Virus record (IMG/VR): IMGVR_UViG_3300042922_000953
Coordinates: 1 to 24,766 of that record
Strand: one strand, 5' to 3'
DNA length: 24,766 bases
DNA from: a virus
This document shows, in pieces, positions 2-17,047 of this stretch. The translations under genes and the position numbers were made by a program. The first letter of the stretch is position 1, and each line of letters opens with the position of its first letter. The notes under the pieces are model-generated. The model made no database searches, had not been told where the DNA came from, and was given only the letters and a program-made list of their open reading frames with translations.

Positions 2-1087
2 AAAGTGATATTGAATTCTGTTGAAGCAACTACTGTTGGAGTAACGATTGGTACTGATTTTACAGTTGAATATTCGACTGACGGTGAAAAAGTTATAGTT
101 AAAGCATTAACTGCAACCGTTGGAGCCAGCTTGGATTTAAGCTTTGATGAAATAGATATGACTAATGTTACTGGAACAACTATAATAGGCGGAACTGATG
201 CAAATGGTATTAGAACAGGTATTGATGCAATTGATTTAATATACCAGACATTCAACATGATACCTACAATCTTTGCAGCTCCAGGATGGTCACATATTGA
301 GGATGTAGATACAGCATTAAAGTCTAAGAGCCAAAAATTCAATGGACATTGGTTTGCATGGGTAAATTCTGATATTGACAGTGACACTACAACAACAATC
401 ACTGCAGCTAAAACTGCAAAAAATACAAATGGGTTCATCGGTGTTATGGAAAGTCCTTGTTGGCCGATGGCTTATAAAGGAGTAAGAAAGTTCCATATTT
501 CAACTTTGGCAACAGTTACAATGCAAATGGTAGATTTTCAAAATGATAATGTACCATATGAAACACCTTCAAACAAACCAGTTGATATAAGTGGGATGTG
601 CTTAAAAGATGGTTCGGTTATAGAAATTGACCAAACACAAGCTAATGACTTAAATAGCAAAGGGATTAGAACATTGACATTTTGGGGAGGCAGATGGATA
701 TTGTGGGGCTCTCATACCGGTGATTATGAATATGGTAAAGATATGGACAAGAGGAATGTATTTGATTCAAACATAAGAATGATTTATTATGTTGCAAATA
801 CTTTCCAAAGTAGATACGGTACGTTAGTCGATAAGCCAATGAATAGGGCATTAGTAGACACAATATTAAACGACTTCCAAGAGTGGTTTGATAATTTAGC
901 AGCTCAGGGAAGAATCTTATTTGGTGAAATTACCTTTACAGAAATTGATAATCCAATAACTGATGTTGTGGAAGGTGATTTTGATTTTAATATTGAAACA
1001 ACAACAACTCCACCTGGTAAGTCCTTAACTGCTAAGATATCATGGACAACACAAGGTATAAACGTATTATTTGGAGGTGAAGAATAA
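2..1087 (+). CDS. Phage tail sheath protein (gpFI-like), 5' partial
   Basis: This is the contractile tail sheath subunit that surrounds the tail tube and contracts to drive DNA delivery. The frame is open to the left edge, so the N-terminus is missing; the in-frame GTG at 5 is probably not the true start. About 360 residues are visible, against roughly 390-480 for complete P2-type sheaths. The C-terminal half has the typical sheath pattern: an aromatic GGRWILWGSHTG stretch, then DNIRMIYYV-like and DKPMNR-like segments, then a helix leading to a beta-rich end. It overlaps the tube gene by one base (TAATG). Order and overlap match the sheath-tube pair of P2-like phages. Family recognition is by pattern, not by search. 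Confidence 0.9.
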   Translation, partial: KVILNSVEATTVGVTIGTDFTVEYSTDGEKVIVKALTATVGASLDLSFDEIDMTNVTGTTIIGGTDANGIRTGIDAIDLIYQTFNMIPTIFAAPGWSHIEDVDTALKSKSQKFNGHWFAWVNSDIDSDTTTTITAAKTAKNTNGFIGVMESPCWPMAYKGVRKFHISTLATVTMQMVDFQNDNVPYETPSNKPVDISGMCLKDGSVIEIDQTQANDLNSKGIRTLTFWGGRWILWGSHTGDYEYGKDMDKRNVFDSNIRMIYYVANTFQSRYGTLVDKPMNRALVDTILNDFQEWFDNLAAQGRILFGEITFTEIDNPITDVVEGDFDFNIETTTTPPGKSLTAKISWTTQGINVLFGGEE

Positions 1088-1596
1088 TGTCAGTTATTTC
1101 AGGCAGCGTAATTGCTGATAAATTACTATCTGACGGCATGGAGATTGGTGACCATGTTTCATGTCAACTTCCTTCAATTGAGAAAGCTACTGCAGAAATG
1201 AAGGGCGCCGGCATAATGGGAACAATTGATATGCCAATGACAGGACAGTTTAACTCTATGGTTTTTGTAATTAATACTAGATCGATTAATAAGAACTCTG
1301 TTGAATTAATTAAACCGGGTCCACAGAGGTTAGAACTAAGGTTTTTAAGGGATGTGTTGCAGTCAGATGGCACAATGATTCCACAAGGAACTAAGATTTT
1401 TATAACAGGCATAAATAAAAAATATGATCCTGGTAAAGTGGAAAGAGCTACCACTATGGATGGTAGCACTGAATTTGAAGTCTTGAGATATAGACAAGTG
1501 ATTGAAGGCAGAGAAACATTGCTGATTGATAAATTAGCTAATGTATTCAAGGTTAATGGAAAAGATTATATGTCAGAAATAAGAGCTGCTCTTTAA
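1087..1596 (+). CDS. Major tail tube protein (gpFII-like)
   Basis: This 169-aa protein forms the inner tail tube through which DNA passes; P2 FII is about 172 aa. It has the usual FII composition: an N-terminal region that binds neighbouring subunits, then beta strands around a GTIDMPMTGQ-like segment and an ELRFLRDVL-like segment. The start ATG overlaps the sheath stop codon, so the two are translationally coupled. The 3' end forms the left arm of a terminator-like hairpin (1578-1613), which may lower transcription of the genes downstream of this abundant protein. Confidence 0.9.
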   Translation: MSVISGSVIADKLLSDGMEIGDHVSCQLPSIEKATAEMKGAGIMGTIDMPMTGQFNSMVFVINTRSINKNSVELIKPGPQRLELRFLRDVLQSDGTMIPQGTKIFITGINKKYDPGKVERATTMDGSTEFEVLRYRQVIEGRETLLIDKLANVFKVNGKDYMSEIRAAL

Positions 1597-1613
1597 GAGG
1601 GCTCTTATTTTTT
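1578..1613 (+). terminator. Terminator-like hairpin between tube and chaperone genes
   Basis: A perfect 9-bp inverted repeat, AATAAGAGC (1578-1586) and GCTCTTATT (1601-1609), is followed by a T run to 1613. The loop itself contains a CTCTT/AAGAG palindrome. The stem overlaps the tube stop codon. It has the form of an intrinsic terminator but lies inside the tail operon, so partial read-through is expected. Confidence 0.65.
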
Positions 1614-1624
1614 AGGAGGATATT

Positions 1625-1951
1625 ATGGAAAAAGAAAAAAATGTTTTAAAGTTAATTAAGCCTATAATGATTAATGGTGAAGAAGTTAAAGAATTAAAAT
1701 ATGATTTTGATAATATGACTGCACGAGATAAATTGGATGTTGGCAAGAGAATGAAGATGGACGGGAATAGTCCATCTGTAGAGGAAATAGATAATGACTA
1801 CCATTTTTATTTGTTTGCTGGAGCTGTTAGTAAAGCGGATTCATCTATTGATACATCAGATTTAATGAGATTAAGCGCAAGAGATGCTCAAAAGGGGTCA
1901 GGGTTAGCTAGAAGTTTTTTCTACGTGAATTCGGAATCACCGGAGGAATAG
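1625..1951 (+). CDS. Tail assembly chaperone, short form (gpE-like)
   Basis: This is the short (108 aa) product of the tail assembly chaperone gene, analogous to P2 gpE, which binds the tape measure protein before the tube polymerises around it. The N-terminus (LIKPIMINGEEVKEL) is typical of gpE-like proteins. The start has a strong AGGAGG site 7 bases upstream. A slippery heptamer near codon 97 lets some ribosomes enter the -1 frame and make a longer product (see 1625-2103). The position between tube and tape measure genes fits the family. Confidence 0.85.
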   Translation: MEKEKNVLKLIKPIMINGEEVKELKYDFDNMTARDKLDVGKRMKMDGNSPSVEEIDNDYHFYLFAGAVSKADSSIDTSDLMRLSARDAQKGSGLARSFFYVNSESPEE

Positions 1952-2103
1952 AATTTGATGAAATCATAAAGGAACGAATAGCAATAGTAACTCTTGATAC
2001 ATCTACAAGTGCAGAATATTGTTATAACATTCCTATTTTAGATTTCTTAGATTTCTATGACAGCTTAGTAAAAGTTGCTCAAAAAAGAAAAGAAAACAAA
2101 TAA
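1625..2103 (+). CDS. Tail assembly chaperone, -1 frameshift product (gpE+E'-like)
   Basis: If ribosomes slip -1 on T-TTT-TTC (1915-1921), the first 99 residues are joined to 60 more encoded by 1921-2100, ending at TAA 2101-2103, for a 159-aa fusion. The extension has coding character and ends in a charged helix (LDFYDSLVKVAQKRK), and no separate start with a ribosome binding site serves it. The frame fills exactly the gap before the tape measure gene. In P2, lambda and many tailed phages the same slip makes the long chaperone that bridges tube and tape measure. The frames and heptamer are seen directly; the slippage is inferred from the family. Confidence 0.8.
1915..1921 (+). promoter_or_regulatory. 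-1 ribosomal frameshift slippery site
   Basis: The heptamer T TTT TTC is in the correct phase relative to the zero frame (AGT TTT TTC). A G-rich, Shine-Dalgarno-like AGGGG lies about 15 bases upstream and might stimulate pausing. No convincing downstream stem was found by eye. Confidence 0.8.
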
Positions 2104-2124
2104 ACCTTCTGAAAGGAGGTTAAT

Positions 2125-3795
2125 ATGGCAACAAAAAAAGAATTAAGAGCATTAATTACACTTGCCGGAAAGGTAGATCCAAGTTTACAAAGTGCCATGC
2201 TTAAGGCAACTGGACAAACAAAAAAGTTATCTGAACACTATAAAGATTCAACAAAACATGCTAGTCGATTATCAGATATAATCAAAGGTAGTTTTGTTGG
2301 AAGCTTAGCTGCAAATGGCGTTTCATATTTAATAGGTCAAATAAGACAATTAGGTTCAGAAAGCATTGACCTGGCAAGCAGTTTAATAGAGGTTCAAAAC
2401 GTTGTTGACACAACATTTAGAAATAATTCAAATGCAATAAACAGGTTTGCTAAAACAGCTTTAGAAGATTTTGGACTTAGTGAATTACAGGCAAAACAGT
2501 TTTCTGGTACACTAGGAGCAATGTTTAAAAGCAGTGGAGTTGCCGATGCGGATTTAGTAAAATTATCAACTGATTTGGCTGGATTATCTGGAGATTTAGC
2601 TTCTTTCTACAATCTTGATATTGAAGAAGCTTTTACAAAAATCAGATCCGGCATTAGCGGTGAAACAGAACCACTTAAACAGCTTGGTATCAACATGTCA
2701 GTTGCAAATTTAGAAGCATTCGCTTTATCAAAAGGCATTAAAACCCAATACCAGAGCATGACTCAAGCAGAACAAGCACTTTTAAGATACAACTATTTAA
2801 TGGCGACAACTGCTGATCAGCAAGGAGACTTCGCAAAAACTAGCGGAGAATACGCAAACCAACAAAGGTTATTTGACACAAATTTAAAGCAAGCTAGTGC
2901 AACCATTGCATCAGCATTTTTGCCATATTTAAATAAAGCTTTGATAAAAGGTAATGAATTCTTTAAAAGTACTGATTTTAATGCAATGGCAATAAGCGTT
3001 GGTAAAGGTTTAGAGTTGGCCGGCAATGGATTTAAGTTCTTAGCTGATAATGGAGATGTTATTTTACCATTATTGGGTGGAGTATTTGGTTATTTTACAG
3101 CTATCAAAGCTATAAATTTTGCTGCTTCAATTGCAGGATTGACCAATCCAATAGGTTTAGCAGCATTAGTTATAGGTGGATTGGTAGCAGCTGGAGTTGC
3201 ATTATATCAGAACTGGGATGGAATTAAAGCAAGTGCTAAAGAATTTGCTGATATGATGAAAGTTTGGGGTACTTCCATAAGAGACAACGCTTCATATGCA
3301 TTTGAAGGTATGAAAGATAGGGTAACAACAAATTTTAACATTATGGTTAATGGACTTAAAAAGGCTTTTTCAGCATATGCGAATTTCTTCATTAATAGAT
3401 ATAACAGTCTTATTTCAGGATTAAATAAGTTTCAAGTTAAGGTTCCAGACTGGGTACCTAGTATTGGTGGTATGACATATGGATTTAATATTCCTACTAT
3501 ACCATTATTTGCGAGAGGTGGTATAGCTACAAGACCATCTATATTTGGTGAAGCAGGTCCTGAAGCGGCCATTCCATTAAAGAGAACTCCAAGAAGTTAT
3601 GATTTGTTATTTAAGACTGCAAATATCCTGGGGCTTAAGGAAGATAACAGGTCTGCAAAAAATAGCAATAGAGGTAATCTTACCATTCAAATTTACGAAA
3701 GCAATAACGCTAGAGAAACTGCAAGGGAAGTAATAGAAATAGTAAAAAATTATTTTGGTGATCCAGATGATGAAGGGAGGTTAGTACTTGGATAG
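2125..3795 (+). CDS. Tail tape measure protein
   Basis: This 556-aa protein sets tail length and is threaded through the tube lumen. It shows an alanine-rich helical N-terminal half, a hydrophobic stretch near residues 313-362 (probable membrane-interacting helices) and the conserved C-terminal ARGGI-GEAGPEAAIPL motif found in many phage tape measures. It is short compared with P2 gpT (about 815 aa), which predicts a shorter tail. AAGGAGG lies upstream of ATG, and the gene directly follows the frameshifted chaperone, as expected. The C-terminus overlaps the gpX start by 8 bases. Confidence 0.9.
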   Translation: MATKKELRALITLAGKVDPSLQSAMLKATGQTKKLSEHYKDSTKHASRLSDIIKGSFVGSLAANGVSYLIGQIRQLGSESIDLASSLIEVQNVVDTTFRNNSNAINRFAKTALEDFGLSELQAKQFSGTLGAMFKSSGVADADLVKLSTDLAGLSGDLASFYNLDIEEAFTKIRSGISGETEPLKQLGINMSVANLEAFALSKGIKTQYQSMTQAEQALLRYNYLMATTADQQGDFAKTSGEYANQQRLFDTNLKQASATIASAFLPYLNKALIKGNEFFKSTDFNAMAISVGKGLELAGNGFKFLADNGDVILPLLGGVFGYFTAIKAINFAASIAGLTNPIGLAALVIGGLVAAGVALYQNWDGIKASAKEFADMMKVWGTSIRDNASYAFEGMKDRVTTNFNIMVNGLKKAFSAYANFFINRYNSLISGLNKFQVKVPDWVPSIGGMTYGFNIPTIPLFARGGIATRPSIFGEAGPEAAIPLKRTPRSYDLLFKTANILGLKEDNRSAKNSNRGNLTIQIYESNNARETAREVIEIVKNYFGDPDDEGRLVLG

Positions 3796-9455: not shown

Positions 9456-9746
9456 ATGAAATACTATATGTTTTTAGATATGAACAACAATGTTTTATAT
9501 CTACTTGAGACAAGCAATGAGACTCAAATGTCAGGTGGTATTGAGATATCTCAGGAAGATTATTTATTACTTACCCAACACATGAACAAATATAGATACC
9601 AATATATAGAGAATAAAATTGTGAATGTTGGTGAAGTGGTAATTGAAACACCTTTATCAGTAGAGGAACAAAAGCTTGTAGAAATAGCAGAAAGTATTAA
9701 TTTACTTGTAGAGTTACAAGCAGATTTAATTGGGGGTGCTATTTAA
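9456..9746 (+). CDS. Small phage protein downstream of tail fibre
   Basis: This 96-aa protein has a strong AGGAGG upstream of its ATG. It has an N-terminal beta region (YYMFLDMNNNVLYLL) and a helical C-terminus rich in Leu and Glu. Its place between the fibre and the peptidase/holin genes matches small tail-associated or fibre-accessory proteins in clostridial phages, but no specific family was recognised. It overlaps the next small gene by TAATG, so the two are probably translated together. Confidence 0.7.
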   Translation: MKYYMFLDMNNNVLYLLETSNETQMSGGIEISQEDYLLLTQHMNKYRYQYIENKIVNVGEVVIETPLSVEEQKLVEIAESINLLVELQADLIGGAI

Positions 9747-9889
9747 TGACCAAAATTCAAAAGAAAATATTGATAGCAGGTATAAAAATAAAGATGGAAA
9801 GAGGTGAGCTGCTGGAGGATATTTTAGCTTCGTATGTAAAATTGCCTGAGGATGAAAAACAAGAACTTAGAACAGAGTTGGAGGTGTAA
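9746..9889 (+). CDS. Small helical phage protein (47 aa)
   Basis: A 47-aa frame starts at the ATG overlapping the previous stop (TAATG) and ends one base before the next gene's ATG. It is charged and helical (IKMERGELLEDILASY, LPEDEKQELRTEL). Tiny proteins at this position, of the XkdX or CD1375 kind, are common between fibre and lysis genes in Firmicute phages, but the XkdX signature was not seen, so only the position supports that link. The tight overlaps argue that it is real. Confidence 0.6.
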   Translation: MTKIQKKILIAGIKIKMERGELLEDILASYVKLPEDEKQELRTELEV

Positions 9890-9890
9890 A

Positions 9891-10844
9891 ATGGCAACAT
9901 ATGTGGAACTACTTGAAAATGATTTTGCGAGGCAAATTGAATTTTTAAATATAAAAAAATATCATGAGCATGGCTTTAAAGGTAATGGAATCACAATATT
10001 AAACGCTGAATCTATAGGAGATCATAGAGAGATGACATCAAAAGTCATAAGAGACTTTGCCCCAGAAGTTACGCTGCTGGAAAGCTTGATATCAGCAAGA
10101 ACCAGCGGAGATAAGGTGCTAGAAGCAACTGTAACTATTAACGGAGAAAAACTTGACTTTGAAAAAGCTATTGATAAATATAATATCAAAATTGTTTCAA
10201 GATCATATTCCGGCTCATCTTCATCTGCATTTCTTAATTACTTGAAAGACATCCAAAAACGTAAGGGTGTTATTTTTTTCTGTTCTGCAGGAAACGAAGG
10301 AGTAGAAGGTGTAACAGGTGTATATGCAAAAGATGATACAGCTATTGCTGTTGGAGCTGCTAGGTTAAAAGAAAATGGCACAGTCGAAAGAATGTACTAT
10401 AGTGCAATTGGTGAAGAACTTGACTTTATGTGTTTCATGGCACGTGGAACAGGGACAAGCGCAGCAAGTCCGGCATTGGCAGCTATAACGGTATTACTAT
10501 TACAACGATATGGGGACTTTAACCAGGAAGAATGTATGGAGGTCTTAAAATATTGTTGTGTAGATTTAGGTGAACCTGGCGATGATAATTATTTCGGCTG
10601 GGGAATACCGGTATTACCATTGACAGATAAATTAGAAATTTTAGAAAAACTGAGAGGTGAGGAAATGCCACAATTTAAAGATGTTGAAGACACTAGATGG
10701 AGTAAAGAAGCGATTGATTGTTTGGTTGCACGTGGTGAATTAAAAGGATTTGAGGATGGTACCTTTAGACCTAGTGAACCACTAACAAGAGAACAATACG
10801 CTCAAGCAAGATATAATCAGTTAAAATTAGAAGGGAGAATATAA
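9891..10844 (+). CDS. S8 (subtilisin-like) peptidase with C-terminal SLH domain
   Basis: This 317-aa protein starts at ATG 9891 after GGAGGTG. Its S8 domain (about 25-245) has His45 (GDH), the oxyanion Asn135 (SAGNEG) and the nucleophile Ser190 (GTGTSAASPA). The strand that normally carries the catalytic Asp (V-x-D-T/S-G) reads ILNAES, so Asn38 or Glu40 stands there; activity is therefore uncertain. Residues 260-317 form an S-layer homology domain (FKDVEDTRWSKEAIDCLV, GFEDGTFRPSEPLTREQ). No signal peptide is visible. The gene lies between fibre and holin, so it may be a virion-associated or lysis protein acting at an S-layered surface, or may degrade S-layer protein. It overlaps the holin start by one base. 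Confidence 0.85.
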   Translation: MATYVELLENDFARQIEFLNIKKYHEHGFKGNGITILNAESIGDHREMTSKVIRDFAPEVTLLESLISARTSGDKVLEATVTINGEKLDFEKAIDKYNIKIVSRSYSGSSSSAFLNYLKDIQKRKGVIFFCSAGNEGVEGVTGVYAKDDTAIAVGAARLKENGTVERMYYSAIGEELDFMCFMARGTGTSAASPALAAITVLLLQRYGDFNQEECMEVLKYCCVDLGEPGDDNYFGWGIPVLPLTDKLEILEKLRGEEMPQFKDVEDTRWSKEAIDCLVARGELKGFEDGTFRPSEPLTREQYAQARYNQLKLEGRI

Positions 10845-11335
10845 TGGGAGACAACTTTAACGAAATAAAGACTACTTTAGTAGGTGTAATTGCCGTAATA
10901 TATGCTTTCTTAGCAAATATATTCGGAACTTTTACACCTTTGTTAATTATCACTTTGGTCGCTATGCTCGCGGATCTATTCACTAGAATTTACGCTGCAG
11001 CTGTAAGACCAGATGAACGACCAGAAAGTAAGAAAGTATTAATTGGTATATATAAAAAAATAGGAATGTGCATGCTTATTGTTTTGGCTTTAATGGTAGA
11101 CATAGCTTTATCTGTAATGGCTAATTTAATAGGTATAAATATTGTAAGCAAAATAATAGTTACAGCACTAGCCATGGCTTACATCCTTGTTAGAGAATTA
11201 ATTTCTAATGCAGAAAATCTGCAGCATGCCGGGATAGAATTGCCACCATTTATTGTGAAAATACTAGGAATTGCTAAAGAAAAGATTGATAATGCTGGGG
11301 ATGCAATTATAGGTGGTGGTGATACAAGTGATTAA
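10844..11335 (+). CDS. Phage holin (toxin secretion/phage lysis holin family)
   Basis: This 163-aa membrane protein has about three to four hydrophobic segments (roughly residues 11-28, 30-45, 73-91 and 97-114) and a charged C-terminus, matching the Holin_4 type common in Clostridia. It forms the timed membrane lesion that releases the endolysin. A TAATG overlap couples it to the upstream peptidase, and its 3' end overlaps the endolysin start, as in a compact lysis cassette. Confidence 0.88.
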   Translation: MGDNFNEIKTTLVGVIAVIYAFLANIFGTFTPLLIITLVAMLADLFTRIYAAAVRPDERPESKKVLIGIYKKIGMCMLIVLALMVDIALSVMANLIGINIVSKIIVTALAMAYILVRELISNAENLQHAGIELPPFIVKILGIAKEKIDNAGDAIIGGGDTSD

Positions 11336-11912
11336 ATTCAAGGTCAACCCTACCAGCAATCAACGTATAACATCAGAATTCGGCAAGAGAGAATTTGCAG
11401 GCATGCAATTTCATAGCGGAATAGACTTTGGGGCTAACGAACCTGGAGTAGAAGGTGACGAACTTTATGCTGTAGCAGATGGAACAGTAAGAATATCAAA
11501 AGTTGATAGCGGAAATATCAATGTTGGTTATGGTAATTACATAATTATAGAGCATGATGATTATTGCACATTGTATGCCCACTTACAGAATCTTGAAATC
11601 AAGGTTGGTGAGAATGTAAAAGCTGGACAAGTAATTGGTCATATGGGGAATACTGGAGAGTCTACTGCTACGCATCTACATTTTGAATTAAGAAACTGTG
11701 GATATTCAAATCCTTACTTTTGGACTAAAGGAAATTATAAAGGTCAGTTTCTGATGTGTATTAACCCTATTAATTATTTCATCAAACCACATTGGGCTGA
11801 AGAGCATAAGTTGAGTTTGGATGGCAAGGGAATTGTGATTAACGACACAAGATATGATGACTTCATGACGCGTGGAGAAGTGTTTGCATTATTAGATAGA
11901 ATTGTAAAGTAA
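11328..11912 (+). CDS. M23 endopeptidase endolysin with SLH-like C-terminus
   Basis: This 194-aa lysin cuts peptide cross-bridges of peptidoglycan. The LytM/M23 zinc site is complete: His29 and Asp33 (FHSGIDFG), His85 (YAHL), and His116-x-His118 (THLHFE). The C-terminal 40 residues (about 155-194), with TRGEVFALLDR, resemble the end of an SLH repeat and probably bind the wall. GTG 11328 is preferred, because GGTGGTGAT lies just upstream; GTGs at 11313 and 11316 are alternatives. There is no signal peptide, which fits holin-dependent release. Pieces of the 3' end of this gene recur at 15414-15536 and 16684-16716. Confidence 0.9.
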   Translation: MIKFKVNPTSNQRITSEFGKREFAGMQFHSGIDFGANEPGVEGDELYAVADGTVRISKVDSGNINVGYGNYIIIEHDDYCTLYAHLQNLEIKVGENVKAGQVIGHMGNTGESTATHLHFELRNCGYSNPYFWTKGNYKGQFLMCINPINYFIKPHWAEEHKLSLDGKGIVINDTRYDDFMTRGEVFALLDRIVK

Positions 11913-11940
11913 CCAGGTATATTTGCCTGGTCTTTTTTTT
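11912..11940 (+). terminator. Intrinsic terminator of the late operon
   Basis: ACCAGG (11912-11917) pairs with CCTGGT (11926-11931) and is followed by CTTTTTTTT. It starts at the last base of the endolysin stop codon. Related hairpins occur at 15535-15562 and 16711-16749. Confidence 0.9.
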
Positions 11941-11979: not shown

Positions 11980-12008
11980 TTGTAAATTGTAAAATATTGT
12001 CATATAAT
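11980..12008 (+). promoter_or_regulatory. Putative promoter of the three-gene cassette
   Basis: TTGTAA (11980-11985), a 17-base spacer and TATAAT (12003-12008) follow the late terminator. The -10 lies two bases from the GGAGGGG ribosome binding site, so transcription would start within that site. A second, weaker pair, TTTCCA-N18-TATATA beginning at 11942, would give a normal leader. The cassette thus probably has its own transcription in the lysogen, but which promoter is used is unclear. Confidence 0.5.
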
Positions 12009-12025
12009 TGGAGGGGATATATAAT

Positions 12026-12730
12026 ATGAATGTAGGTGAAAATATGGCTGCTCAAAGTATTTTAATGTACAAATTTAAGCTTTTGCAGATTAAACCAATA
12101 GATACAATAGTTTCAAAGATCGAAGAGTATTTTCAACAAGACGAGAAATTTATAATTGATTTTTATAATCAAAATCAAGTCGAGGGCGCTTATATATATT
12201 TAAATAATTATAGGGAAAATGTTTTCGATTATGATACAAATACTTTTAAGTTAGTTAATGTATCTAGTACTATTGTCACAAAATTCAATATAGATTTACT
12301 TAATAGTATTCTTTATATATGGGGAAGTAAAAAAACAGCATTAAGAATAACAGCAGCATTTTCATTAATATTTCAGAATAAAATAATTTTAGAACCAAAT
12401 GATATAATTTTTAAAAAGTGTTTAAAATTTCTAGAAGAAGAAAAGAACATAATTGTGTGTAATACAAAAATTGATGACATTATATTTGAAACTGATTTAG
12501 TTGCTACATGTACTATTAATCTTGCATTATACTCTAATCCATTTGAAATTTTAAACAAATATATTGATAAAATCTCTAAAGTTACTGTAATTTTAGGTCC
12601 TGATAGTGACAATGTTTCAATTAGTATTTACCAATCAGGTTCTATTGTAATTTATAAAAATCGAGAGCAATTGTCAGAAAAAGCATCAGCATTTGTAAAG
12701 GATTTACTAATTGCATCAAGGAGGGAATAA
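12026..12730 (+). CDS. Unrecognised cargo protein A (three-gene cassette)
   Basis: This 234-aa protein starts at ATG 12026 after GGAGGGG. No family was recognised. It is a mixed alpha/beta, Ile/Lys/Asn-rich soluble protein with no clear membrane segment or signal peptide. It has a central helical part (TALRITAAFSLIFQNKIIL) and a beta C-terminus (KVTVILGPDSDNVSISIYQSG). It is separated by two bases from the nuclease-like gene, which has its own AGGAGGG site, so they form one operon. By eye the cassette is more AT-rich than the tail genes, a sign of separate origin. It may be a sensor, inhibitor or partner of the nuclease; this is inference from the operon only. Confidence 0.75.
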   Translation: MNVGENMAAQSILMYKFKLLQIKPIDTIVSKIEEYFQQDEKFIIDFYNQNQVEGAYIYLNNYRENVFDYDTNTFKLVNVSSTIVTKFNIDLLNSILYIWGSKKTALRITAAFSLIFQNKIILEPNDIIFKKCLKFLEEEKNIIVCNTKIDDIIFETDLVATCTINLALYSNPFEILNKYIDKISKVTVILGPDSDNVSISIYQSGSIVIYKNREQLSEKASAFVKDLLIASRRE

Positions 12731-12732
12731 TA

Positions 12733-13692
12733 ATGGGAGAAAACGCGCCAAAAATAGGCAAAAAACTTGAATCATTTGGATGGAATTTGTTTGGTTTGTT
12801 TAATTGGAAATTAAAAATGAAGGATAAACAAATAAATTGTGTCAGAAGTGCTCATAAGAGTAAAGGTGATAAGGATAAAAAGACACATGGGGTAGACATT
12901 TATCTTGAATACGAAGATCCTTATATAAATAAGGTACAAGGTGTATTTATTGAATGTAAAAATAGACAATGGGTGTCTATAAATAGTTCTAATATTGAAG
13001 AATGGATAGATGAATTAATTAACACGATGGAATGTGCTATTTATGATCAAGAATTAAATGGGTATTATGCAGAAAATAGCGATAAGCATTGTGGCCTGCT
13101 CCTAATAAATACTAATGATGGTAAATTTAATAAAACTAAATTTTACAATTACATTGAAAATGTTACTTATAAAAATAAAAGAATGCCGATAAAGGTATTT
13201 ATTGCTGGAAATGACATGATAAACAAATGGTGGGCTATAGATAATATTAATGCCACTGATTATAATAGAAACTTACAATATATATATTTAAGTATTAATA
13301 ATTCTAGACCAGTTAAAAACAAATGCTTAAGCATAAACCATCTTTATTCTAAATATATTTTCTGTGAGTATGAGTATAAGAAGGAGAGTATTGAAGGGGA
13401 TGAGAAGGTAATACGTACAAGAAGGAAAATGGTAATATTTTGCTTTGATAAAATCTGTAGAGAAAGCTTCAATTATCTGTGGAGTATTTGTAGGTTTTAC
13501 CAATCTGAAAATAATTATAAGGAGTATGATATATGCTTTTTTCCAGAAAGCAGTATAGATACTACCATGGTTAAAGAAGATTTTATGAATATACTAAAAA
13601 CATATGAAAAAAGTATAGAGCCTGATATTTTAAAAAATATTAATGTAAAATTTCTGCAAAACAGAGATTTAGCGGTTGTAGAAAACCAATAG
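12733..13692 (+). CDS. PD-(D/E)XK nuclease-like cargo protein B
   Basis: This 319-aa protein has an N-terminal restriction-endonuclease-like core: a helix with Glu13, then HGVDIYL with Asp55, then VFIECKNR with Glu74-x-Lys76. The spacing fits the E/D-ExK site of Mrr-like and Holliday-junction-resolvase-like folds. A helix follows the core (about 86-103), as usual. The rest, about 110-319, matches no domain I recognise and may sense or bind a partner. The gene lies second in a three-gene operon inside a phage cargo hotspot, a typical place for defence or superinfection-exclusion genes. The fold call rests on the motif alone; target and activity are unknown. Confidence 0.65.
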   Translation: MGENAPKIGKKLESFGWNLFGLFNWKLKMKDKQINCVRSAHKSKGDKDKKTHGVDIYLEYEDPYINKVQGVFIECKNRQWVSINSSNIEEWIDELINTMECAIYDQELNGYYAENSDKHCGLLLINTNDGKFNKTKFYNYIENVTYKNKRMPIKVFIAGNDMINKWWAIDNINATDYNRNLQYIYLSINNSRPVKNKCLSINHLYSKYIFCEYEYKKESIEGDEKVIRTRRKMVIFCFDKICRESFNYLWSICRFYQSENNYKEYDICFFPESSIDTTMVKEDFMNILKTYEKSIEPDILKNINVKFLQNRDLAVVENQ

Positions 13693-13707
13693 TGGGGTAT
13701 AAATTAT

Positions 13708-14772
13708 ATGATAACAAAATATGTTGATAACAAAGAGTTAAAAAGAATTGTTGACGAAGGTAATTTAAAACTCTATAAAGTTAAAAGTGTGTTGAAAAAA
13801 AGAGGTGTATTACTAACTTCTACTAGTTCAAATATTGTAGCTGAACAAATGTATCCGATTTTATGGGGAATATTGGATATGTCAGAATTTAAAGATTCTA
13901 TAGATGATTCTAACAACTATATTAAATCATCATTAATAGAGATAAATTGTAAATCAGAGAACGAAATTATTGATACTGTTGAATCTGCTTTTACAATGTC
14001 TAACTATATGAAAAAGCAATATTCTTTTGACTCAATGTGTAGAGATAATAATAATTTAAGTATGAGATTAAAATACCCGAAAAGCAAAATAGGTAAGAAT
14101 GAATTAATGTCTATTCAAGATAAATACGTTGATATCTTTGTGAAAAAAATAAGTGAAAATAAAGCTATCTTTGATATAAGACAAGCATCTTCAAATGAAA
14201 TGAAAGATGTAAATAAATTTTTAAATGAAGTTTTAATTGAGAATAATGAGCTGAAAATGCGCCGTATAAATTTAGGTAACTTAACTAATGAAAATCGAAT
14301 AGATTTTTTTGATAAATTGAACCTTCACAACTTTAAAGAATGGACATTTTTAACAGTAACTAAAATGGAATTAAAGAAAAACGAAGCAAATGATGATGAA
14401 GAAGTAACCCTGGACGAAGATGAATCAAATGAACAAGCATTAGGAAATTTGAGGGGTATAACAAGTGCTATTGTTAATGGTACAAGTATTAGAACTAATT
14501 CTTTCGTACAAGAGTGTTTGAAAAATCAATTTTCAATAGCGACTATGGGATATAAATATCAACATAAAACGGAATTAGTTAAAGTAATTATTGAAATCAA
14601 CTTTAAATATGATGACATTAAAATTGATATTAGTAAAACCTATGAATATGATGATACTGAAAAAAAAGAAAAGGCTCACCCTTTAATGCTAAGCCGACAA
14701 GAAGATATAATTAAAAGCTTTCAAGATGTCGCTTATAATATATATGAAGAAATTATTAGTAACCAAAAATAA
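13708..14772 (+). CDS. Unrecognised cargo protein C (three-gene cassette)
   Basis: This 354-aa protein is the last gene of the cassette, 15 bases after the nuclease-like gene and with a weaker GGGGT site. It has no recognised family. The N-terminus (VLKKRGVLLTSTSSNIVAEQ) is compact; the middle is helical; an acidic, probably disordered linker (about 225-243) separates a C-terminal beta-rich domain (VKVIIEINFKYDDIKIDISKTY). No membrane segment or signal peptide is visible. Two terminators follow it (14787-14884). The two-domain form with an acidic linker would suit a binding or specificity subunit, but this is speculative. Confidence 0.75.
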   Translation: MITKYVDNKELKRIVDEGNLKLYKVKSVLKKRGVLLTSTSSNIVAEQMYPILWGILDMSEFKDSIDDSNNYIKSSLIEINCKSENEIIDTVESAFTMSNYMKKQYSFDSMCRDNNNLSMRLKYPKSKIGKNELMSIQDKYVDIFVKKISENKAIFDIRQASSNEMKDVNKFLNEVLIENNELKMRRINLGNLTNENRIDFFDKLNLHNFKEWTFLTVTKMELKKNEANDDEEVTLDEDESNEQALGNLRGITSAIVNGTSIRTNSFVQECLKNQFSIATMGYKYQHKTELVKVIIEINFKYDDIKIDISKTYEYDDTEKKEKAHPLMLSRQEDIIKSFQDVAYNIYEEIISNQK

Positions 14773-14786
14773 ATCATTAAATTAAT

Positions 14787-14826
14787 AGGGCAGACCATAC
14801 ACAAAGTGAAGGTATCTGCCCTTTTA
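14787..14826 (+). terminator. Terminator of the three-gene cassette (first)
   Basis: AGGGCAGA (14787-14794) pairs with TCTGCCCT (14815-14822), followed by TTTAATTT. It lies 14 bases after the stop of cargo protein C. Confidence 0.75.
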
Positions 14827-14852: not shown

Positions 14853-14884
14853 AGCCAGCGCTTTTGCGAGTGGCTTTTGTTTTA
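14853..14884 (+). terminator. Terminator (second, tandem)
   Basis: AGCCA-g-CGC, a TTTT loop, then GCG-ag-TGGCT, followed by TTTGTTTT. Together with 14787-14826 it isolates the cassette from what follows. Confidence 0.6.
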
Positions 14885-15017: not shown

Positions 15018-15257
15018 CTACCACTTAAATAGATACCAAGTATTTTTCTTGATTTCATACTTCAATTCATAAATGTTGCATCCGTTATGCTGACATACAA
15101 ACATTAGGTTATTGCATCCAAAGTTCTTATCTTCGTATGTTTTTAAAATTCTTTGAACCATTATAATCTGATCTTCAAACCAGAGTTTCACCGGCTCGAT
15201 TTTGCCGTCTTTATTAAATATGGCCAAAACCTTTATAGGCTCATTTACTATTTTCAT
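15018..15257 (-). CDS. Small conserved protein (79 aa), intact copy
   Basis: ATG at 15257 follows AGGTGATG at good spacing; an earlier in-frame start is less likely. The 79-aa product (MKIVNEPIKVLAIFNK, ending WYLFKW) has alternating strands and helices and three Cys. I do not recognise a family. A second, inactivated copy lies at 16741-16977, and close similarity over the whole length, including the start context, shows this is a real gene. It is transcribed opposite to the cargo cassette and lies between it and the endolysin remnant. Confidence 0.75.
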   Translation of the reverse strand: MKIVNEPIKVLAIFNKDGKIEPVKLWFEDQIIMVQRILKTYEDKNFGCNNLMFVCQHNGCNIYELKYEIKKNTWYLFKW

Positions 15258-15312
15258 AATCATCACCTGATACTAGAATTTCTTGAAGCTTTTGAATAAA
15301 TTTAAATGAAAG

Positions 15313-15363: not shown

Positions 15364-15413
15364 TGTGTAAACTTTAATTTCTTAACTAAACAGTACTTTA
15401 GAAACGAGTGCTA

Positions 15414-15536
15414 CACTGGGATGAAGAGTATAAGTTGAGTTTAGAAAGCCAGGATATCGTGATTAAAGATACCAGATATGAAGACTTCATGACACGTGGA
15501 GAACTATTTGCGTTATTAGATAGAATAGTAAAGTGA
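15414..15536 (+). pseudogene. Endolysin 3'-end remnant (copy B)
   Basis: Bases 15414-15536 encode 40 residues plus stop, matching the C-terminus of the M23 endolysin (residues 155-194) at 31 of 40 positions by eye, without frameshift. The difference is too large for a recent duplication, and many base changes are synonymous, so the piece probably came from a related phage's endolysin. There is no catalytic domain upstream. It is followed by the same type of terminator as the full gene. Confidence 0.85.
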
Positions 15537-15562
15537 CCAGGTAATTATGCCTGGTCTGTTTT
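15535..15562 (+). terminator. Terminator attached to endolysin remnant B
   Basis: GACCAGG (15535-15541) pairs with CCTGGTC (15550-15556), followed by TGTTTTAA. It is homologous to the terminator at 11912-11940. Confidence 0.75.
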
Positions 15563-15927: not shown

Positions 15928-16683
15928 ATGGACAGTTTTTTAAGTTGGATAGGAGGGAAAAAGCTATTAAGAAAAGAAATAGTTAATAGATTTCCTAACA
16001 AAATAGACAGGTATGTAGAAGTGTTTGGCGGGGCAGCATGGGTATTATTTTATAAAGATAGACATGCAAACTTTGAAGTATACAATGATTATAATTCAGA
16101 GCTGGTAAATATATTTAGATGTGTAAAATATCATAGAGAAGAATTGCAAAGAGAATTAAATTATTTTCTAAATTCTAGGGAAATGTTTCAAGACTATTTA
16201 ACCCAATATAAGACCAGAGGAATGACAGACATACAAAGAGCTGCAAGATATTTTATGTTAATTAAAACTTCATACGGAAGTAAAGCAAGTACATACGGAT
16301 GTGTAAAAAAAGATACATCAAAATATATCAATTATCTTTCAGATATACAAAATCGGCTAAGATCAGTTGTAATAGAAAACAGAGATTTTGAAAAAATTAT
16401 TACTACATATGATAGAGAAGGTACTTTGTTTTATTTAGATCCACCATACTATGGTACGGAAAACTATTATAAAGAGGTAGATTTCACTATTGATGATCAT
16501 GAAAGATTAAAGCAAGCATTAGACAATATTTGTGGTAAATTTATATTATCATATAATGATTGCCCAGAGATAAGAGAGTTATACAAGGATTACAAAATTG
16601 AAGAAATTAAAAGAAATAATAATTTGACTTCGAGATATAGCAATGCAGAAAAAGGGTTTAGTGAATTGGTAATTACTAATTAA
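15928..16683 (+). CDS. DNA adenine methyltransferase, D12 class (Dam/DpnM-like)
   Basis: This 251-aa enzyme transfers a methyl group from S-adenosylmethionine to N6 of adenine in DNA. The SAM-binding motif is the N-terminal FLSWIGGKKLL with VEVFGGAAWV following, and the catalytic motif is Asp171-Pro-Pro-Tyr174 (DPPYY). The length is a little short but complete. No restriction endonuclease is next to it, so it is an orphan; phages use such enzymes to hide their DNA from host restriction or to time gene expression. Its stop codon directly abuts the third endolysin remnant at 16684. Divergence from the LexA-like gene suggests DNA-damage or autorepressor control. Confidence 0.9.
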   Translation: MDSFLSWIGGKKLLRKEIVNRFPNKIDRYVEVFGGAAWVLFYKDRHANFEVYNDYNSELVNIFRCVKYHREELQRELNYFLNSREMFQDYLTQYKTRGMTDIQRAARYFMLIKTSYGSKASTYGCVKKDTSKYINYLSDIQNRLRSVVIENRDFEKIITTYDREGTLFYLDPPYYGTENYYKEVDFTIDDHERLKQALDNICGKFILSYNDCPEIRELYKDYKIEEIKRNNNLTSRYSNAEKGFSELVITN

Positions 16684-16716
16684 GTGTTTGCGTTGTTAGA
16701 TAAGATTGTTAATAAA
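16684..16716 (+). pseudogene. Endolysin 3'-end remnant (copy C)
   Basis: Bases from 16684 encode VFALLDKIVNK in the position of the endolysin's VFALLDRIVK; the stop codon has become AAA. It begins directly after the methylase stop codon and is followed by a matching terminator. Only about 11 codons remain. Because of the short length the relation rests mainly on the shared terminator next to it. Confidence 0.75.
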
Positions 16717-16749
16717 CCAGGCTTAATTTGCCTGGTTTATTTATTTTTT
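16711..16749 (+). terminator. Terminator attached to endolysin remnant C
   Basis: AATAAACCAGG (16711-16721) and CCTGGTTTATT (16731-16741) form a perfect 11-bp stem with a T-rich tail (TATTTTTT). It is related to 11912-11940 and 15535-15562 and now terminates the methylase gene. Confidence 0.85.
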
Positions 16750-16977
16750 GTACATGTACCAGATATTACTTTTAATTTCATATTTCGATTCGTAAATAGA
16801 GCTTCCCTTATGTTGGCACACAAACATCAAGTTATTGTTTCCAAAATTCTTATCTTCATAAATTCTCAATATCTTTTCTACAATGACCTGCTCATCCTCG
16901 TACTAAAACTTCACTGGCTCTATTTTTCCCTTTTCAAATATGGCCATAACCTTAATGGGTTCATTTAAAATTTTCAT
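16741..16977 (-). pseudogene. Inactivated copy of the small conserved ORF
   Basis: Minus-strand bases from ATG 16977 to TAA 16743-16741 read as the 79-aa protein at 15018-15257 throughout (MKILNEPIKVMAIFEK, then EDKNFG and LMFVCQH), with one residue fewer. Codon 25 is TAG (16905-16903) where the intact copy has the Trp codon TGG. No frameshift is present, so inactivation looks recent, unless a downstream start or read-through is used. The ribosome binding site (AGGTGATG) is kept. Confidence 0.8.
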
Positions 16978-17047
16978 ATCATCACCTAAAAACACAATAT
17001 CATAAATTTAGAAAAACACTAGCCTTTTAAATGCGTTTTAAGCAAAG

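Follow-up and report, generated by a model that had tools for sequence, protein, structure and literature searches.

The locus examined here raises the question of whether three tightly spaced phage genes encode an undescribed system, as the initial annotation proposed, or a distant version of a system that is already known. The window, by which we mean the whole stretch of DNA analysed, is a virus record of 24,766 bases whose left part carries tail, baseplate and lysis genes and whose right part carries FtsK-like, replication, serine-recombinase and repressor genes. On the basis of this gene content, the record most likely represents a temperate phage. No close record of the whole phage was found in INPHARED, and the window yields no Rfam matches. 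The genes of interest (A, B and C) and the signals around them are listed below.

11912-11931: terminator of the lysin gene
11980-12025, + strand: candidate promoters TTGTAA-17-TATAAT (ending at 12008) and TTGTCA-17-TATAAT (ending at 12025), from a consensus scan
12026-12730, + strand: gene A, Hp3-like subunit of 234 amino acids, assigned from the Hp3 HMM and the fold of relatives
12733-13692, + strand: gene B, predicted Hp1/GapS4a-like PD-(D/E)XK nuclease of 319 amino acids, assigned from GapS4a, phrog_7059 and Hp1 matches
13708-14772, + strand: gene C, Hp2/GapS4b-like subunit of 354 amino acids, assigned from the GapS4b and Hp2 HMMs and the fold of relatives
14788-14825, + strand: terminator 1 after C, a hairpin of -15.0 kcal/mol (z -3.4) followed by a T-run
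14853-14880, + strand: terminator 2 after C, a hairpin of -11.4 kcal/mol (z -2.3) followed by a T-run

All three genes are present and co-directional on the + strand as originally described, with gaps of 2 nucleotides between A and B and 15 nucleotides between B and C. Candidate start codons for A are located at 12026, 12044 or 12065. The GC contents of A, B and C (0.25, 0.28 and 0.26) fall below the values of 0.30-0.37 for the structural and lysis genes upstream (to the left), and thus the cassette is indeed richer in AT than these genes. The further proposal that the cassette has its own promoter and tandem terminators holds for the terminators, as evident by the two hairpins with T-runs that follow C. 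The promoter claim is weak: sigma-70 matches of 11/12 (ending at 12025, directly 5′ of the first ATG) and 10/12 (ending at 12008) precede A, but 36 matches of such quality were observed in the region against 28.1 +/- 5.3 expected, which is not clearly above chance.

Profile searches with the window proteins are largely uninformative. Neither A nor C gives a significant match in Pfam, PADLOC or PHROGs, and a PADLOC scan of the window proteins, B included, returns no match. The sole significant match of B across these three collections is phrog_7059 in PHROGs (E 2.8e-13). With NCBIfam, B resembles GapS4a (NF047933; E 1.9e-17, 63.5 bits relative to a curated cut-off of 270 bits) and C resembles GapS4b (NF047934; E 1.5e-11, 43.7 bits relative to a curated cut-off of 300 bits). 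The impression that the partners of B match no family is therefore accurate for Pfam, PADLOC and PHROGs profile searches, but it does not extend to NCBIfam, where C has its GapS4b match below the cut-off, nor does it survive the collection of homologues of the window proteins. Pfam matches to TBP (A), PS_Dcarbxylase (B) and RbcX (C) fell below the cut-off and were discarded, and the weak TBP match of A agrees with the later fold result. Sequence-profile searches of the PDB were empty or gave chance matches.

Direct searches of viral contigs with window A, B and C, and of genome contigs with B, recovered nothing, and a search with profile A4 was likewise empty. A tblastn search with B located weak relatives on three plasmids (two haloarchaeal and one from Vibrio), on a filamentous Pseudomonas phage and in a gut element, each of which carries all three genes together, arranged either as A-B-C or as B-C-A. 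The only profile that opened up the family was one built from proteobacterial B proteins, which retrieved 80 viral and 80 genome loci. When models of A, B and C were scanned over 173 loci (the window's own stretch included), the gene order was B-C-A in 157, A-B-C in 4 and incomplete in 12, and every incomplete locus stops at a contig edge or at the end of the available sequence. All three genes are thus found together in 161 of the 161 loci long enough to show them, which argues that this is an obligately three-gene unit as far as is visible. Because the homologues adjoin each other in 160 other loci as well as in the window, we conclude that A, B and C are real genes. These results support the earlier view of a three-gene, phage-borne unit, and they show that its members also occur together in other genomes. 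The family is likewise present on plasmids and chromosomes, and no natural fusions of two of the genes were found among the homologues. The window proteins are only about 10-26% identical in sequence to their relatives. A Pf-like filamentous Pseudomonas phage (OR621021.1, positions 485-3252) carries a complete Hp1-Hp2-Hp3 system, the third gene of which was annotated by the depositors as an 'RdgC-like exonuclease', a label consistent with the fold result given below.

To which family these genes belong is best seen with HMMs built solely from the proteobacterial members of B-C-A order, leaving out the members of A-B-C order. The Hp3 model matches window A (E 8.6e-11, model positions 2-221 of 227), the Hp1 model matches B (E 1.6e-21), the Hp2 model matches C (E 1.9e-18), and nothing else in the window is significant. 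Since models made solely from B-C-A members recover all three proteins, the window cassette belongs to the Hp1-Hp2-Hp3 family. An E. coli relative, which is carried by a P2-like element between the portal gene gpQ and gpA, at the hotspot that Rousset et al. describe, matches the PADLOC Hp1, Hp2 and Hp3 models (PDLC03004-3006) over their full lengths (E 1e-239, 3e-248 and 2e-157). A three-gene system from the P2 hotspot, with genes lacking a clear predicted domain, protects E. coli against P1 (Rousset et al., 2022, PMC9122126), and the authors of DefenseFinder place Rst_3HP among the systems found mainly in prophages (PMC9090908). From location, gene count and these matches, we infer that the PADLOC Hp1-Hp2-Hp3 models, Rst_3HP and the system of Rousset et al. 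are the same. The E. coli system is rare, being present in 18 of 5,426 complete genomes, and in some genomes one of its proteins bears the RefSeq label 'PD-(D/E)XK nuclease domain-containing protein'.

The window cassette shares with Rst_3HP the homology of all three genes, the constant presence of the partners, its status as mobile-element cargo and the same predicted nuclease residues. It differs in gene order (the adjacent, co-directional window genes run Hp3-Hp1-Hp2, an order also seen in loci L002, L004 and L005, rather than Hp1-Hp2-Hp3), in its low identity (10-25%), in lying beyond the reach of PADLOC, and in the type of phage that carries it. In a tree of B proteins, 29 members of B-C-A order form a supported group (100/99), whereas the four members of A-B-C order (the window, the gut element and the two haloarchaea) lie outside this group on long branches. 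Judging from sequence, the cassette is very probably a deep-branching, order-permuted member of the Rst_3HP family with a predicted role in defence. The proposal of an anti-phage or exclusion system is supported accordingly by its relatives, but 'undescribed' no longer applies, since the cassette matches an already described defence system at the family level, one that is related to GAPS4. The reach of a prophage defence system first described in E. coli thereby widens to include archaeal plasmids and a distant phage, and current defence-system models miss members such as the window copy.

The predicted catalytic component is protein B, for which the following codons are of interest.

12739-12741, + strand: codon of E3 in B, a putative helix-1 acidic residue (E in 167 of 168 homologues)
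12895-12897, + strand: codon of D55, the putative catalytic Asp of the PD-(D/E)XK core (D in 168 of 168 homologues)
12952-12960, + strand: codons of E74-C75-K76, the (D/E)xK motif (D/E and K each in 168 of 168 homologues)

The GVD...ECK core noted originally comprises D55 (GVD) and E74 and K76 (ECK), at columns that hold D, D/E and K throughout the alignment. Such conservation is typical of a catalytic PD-(D/E)XK site. Residues H52, Y60, P63 and C101 of B are also almost or fully invariant among the 168 aligned homologues.

The NCBIfam matches suggest another way to read the cassette, namely as GAPS4 plus an extra gene, in which GapS4a and GapS4b (B and C) would constitute the defence unit and A would be accessory or regulatory. 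GAPS4 was reportedly first described in Gamma-Mobile-Trio islands. Proteins B and C do match GapS4a and GapS4b better than they match other curated families, and window B scores better against GapS4a than do the Hp1 proteins of Vibrio, E. coli or the Pf phage. Proteins B and C are distant homologues of GapS4a and GapS4b, which are also recovered by the Hp1 and Hp2 models with E values of 1e-11 to 7e-4. However, gene A is present in every one of the 161 informative loci but is missing at the canonical GAPS4 loci that were inspected: no A-like gene occurs within the 8-13 kb available at four Vibrionaceae loci with GapS4a and GapS4b (L185-L188; GapS4a exceeds the NCBIfam cut-off in three of them, and its gene is broken in the fourth), and the Hp3 model has no match at canonical GAPS4 loci. 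In the tree of B proteins, GAPS4 forms a separate clade (100/100) on a long branch, whereas the window has a weakly supported place among the other loci of A-B-C order (89/14). Where the three-gene proteins have D or E in the (D/E)xK motif, canonical GapS4a has serine (SxK), and its active site may be rearranged. We consequently regard the reading as GAPS4 with an added gene as improbable. GAPS4 is a two-gene cousin, with kin of Hp1 and Hp2 and without Hp3, that is distinct from the three-gene unit, and Hp3 is the subunit that sets Hp1-Hp2-Hp3 apart from it.

What A and C might contribute to the three-gene unit can be approached through their folds. Structure predictions were made on E. coli-type relatives of Hp3 and Hp2, from which the folds of window A and C are predicted by homology. 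The AlphaFold2 model of Hp3 has a pLDDT of 97.3, and Foldseek searches of the PDB rank E. coli RdgC (2owl) first (E 2e-6, probability 1.00, TM 0.52), in agreement with the RdgC centre/base fold, followed by Iml3 and its kinetochore complex (E 1e-5, TM about 0.4), all with TM-scores that are modest. In the viral library, the best matches of this model include phage proteins annotated as RdgC. The model of Hp2 (pLDDT 91.6) comprises an N-terminal helical domain and a core that best matches Chl4 from yeast and CENP-N from human (E 1e-4 to 7e-4), again with modest TM-scores of 0.22-0.28. The heterodimer Iml3-Chl4 has the RdgC fold and grips DNA, and the prophage exclusion protein RexA of phage lambda has this same fold (PMC11077077; PMC4080450). 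A channel for DNA, lined with positive charge, is formed by human CENP-LN (PMC9463443). With Hp3 resembling Iml3/CENP-L and Hp2 resembling Chl4/CENP-N, the two partners independently point to the two halves of one DNA-clasping pair.

An RdgC/Iml3-CENP-L-type fold, with an RdgC-like DNA-binding role, thus fits A better than the role of inhibitor that the initial annotation had considered, which is unlikely given the fold predicted for its relatives. RdgC and RexA are DNA-binding dimers to which A is likened by this predicted fold, and RexA offers the additional parallel of acting in prophage exclusion (PMC11077077). Differences are also apparent, in that A has no detectable sequence similarity to either protein and is encoded together with a nuclease and a second subunit, and in that RexA is absent among the fold-search matches listed. 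Likewise, Iml3-Chl4 and CENP-L-CENP-N form a DNA-clasping heterodimer, as may A and C, but this kinetochore pair is eukaryotic and has no nuclease, and the likeness lies at the level of fold. Profiles of Hp2 and Hp3 show no sequence-level similarity to the Pfam RdgC or CENP families, and since sequence profiles detect no similarity between Hp2 and Hp3 themselves, we make no claim of their origin by duplication. Hp2 and Hp3 might be prokaryotic homologues of CENP-N/Chl4 and CENP-L/Iml3, forming a nuclease-arming DNA clamp against foreign DNA that shares ancestry with the centromere-binding module, an idea that we offer tentatively and hold to be possible albeit doubtful. Should the likeness to kinetochore proteins stem from a shared ancestor, it would bear on the origin of the CENP-L/N module. 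The haloarchaeal C proteins (L004 6972-8273 and L005 6959-8260) carry an extra C-terminal helix-hairpin-helix domain, which in L004 matches Pfam HHH_5 (E 1.3e-5) and is a further hint of DNA binding.

In the literature searched, we found no published mechanism for the Hp1-Hp2-Hp3 system. With a predicted PD-(D/E)XK nuclease and two predicted RdgC/CENP-L-N-type DNA-clasping subunits, the system gains a concrete mechanism that can be tested. Proteins A and C would together form a clamp, either a U or a ring in shape, that fits around double-stranded DNA, by analogy with RdgC homodimers and Iml3-Chl4/CENP-L-N heterodimers. The clamp would recognise some feature of incoming or replicating foreign DNA, such as ends, branched or recombining DNA, or the lack of host proteins, and would position or activate nuclease B, which would then cut the foreign DNA and leave the lysogen protected from other phages. 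We consider that this series of steps, from the pairing of A with C and DNA binding through the trigger to cutting, has close to an even chance of being correct, though somewhat short of it.

Several nuclease defence systems act abortively. Protein B might similarly be a host-killing nuclease that is restrained by A or C and freed on infection, in the manner of a toxin-antitoxin unit, and the constant linkage of the three genes would suit such an arrangement. This alternative overlaps with the clamp-and-nuclease mechanism on family and defence role and differs in the target of the nuclease. However, neither A nor C bears an antitoxin mark in sequence or fold, and both look like DNA-binding folds, so we judge an abortive unit to be unlikely.

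The genomic setting of the clamp-and-nuclease candidate bears on its function as well. The following repeats flank the cassette.

11789-11938, + strand: left direct repeat, the 3′ end of the lysin (M23 peptidase) gene with its terminator (150 nucleotides, 84% identical to 15413-15562)
15413-15562, + strand: right direct repeat, a truncated lysin gene end with its terminator, at the distal edge of the inserted cargo

A close relative (L189), whose lysin and methylase are 82% and 92% identical to those of the window, has 390 bases between these two genes and no cassette, and both repeat copies of the window match one stretch there. Other relatives (L191 and L194) carry different genes at the cassette site. 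The locus is a true cargo site, as the term 'phage cargo hotspot' had implied, and the cassette is best explained as exchangeable cargo of a temperate phage. A shorter third copy of the lysin-gene end lies beyond the methylase of the window (16682-16748), and in L189 the lysin-gene 3′ end and terminator are repeated (9475-9622 and 10851-11002), with one copy located beyond the methylase. Because lysin-gene ends recur after each module in both the window and L189, the cargo modules appear to be bounded by them, and it is possible that these repeats would allow cargo to be exchanged by recombination.

This setting is also relevant to the idea that the cassette serves phage replication, as a recombination or anti-recombination module, and not defence. 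The RdgC-like fold predicted for A, the existence of RdgC proteins in phages, the predicted nuclease and the phage location would all be in keeping with such a function. A replication role is nevertheless difficult to reconcile with a cassette that is dispensable cargo, as evident by the empty site in L189, that is found on plasmids and chromosomes as well, and whose E. coli family member protects against P1 (PMC9122126). We therefore consider it highly improbable, and favour defence as the role of this cargo.

Other genes near the cassette deserve mention. A small minus-strand ORF of 82 amino acids lies beside it (window 15018-15287), with homologues in L194 and L198, and a second, apparently decayed copy follows the methylase (16757-17006) with stretches that are 71-83% identical. 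The methylase itself (15928-16683), which adjoins the cassette, is an orphan D12-class adenine methyltransferase (Pfam E 8.6e-32) that is 92% identical in L189 and that could be independent cargo for self-protection or anti-restriction. Among the lysis genes, a subtilase-like protein (9852-10844) seemingly has a terminal SLH-type domain, as read from its sequence, and the lysin (11313-11912) ends in a motif similar to this SLH-type end.
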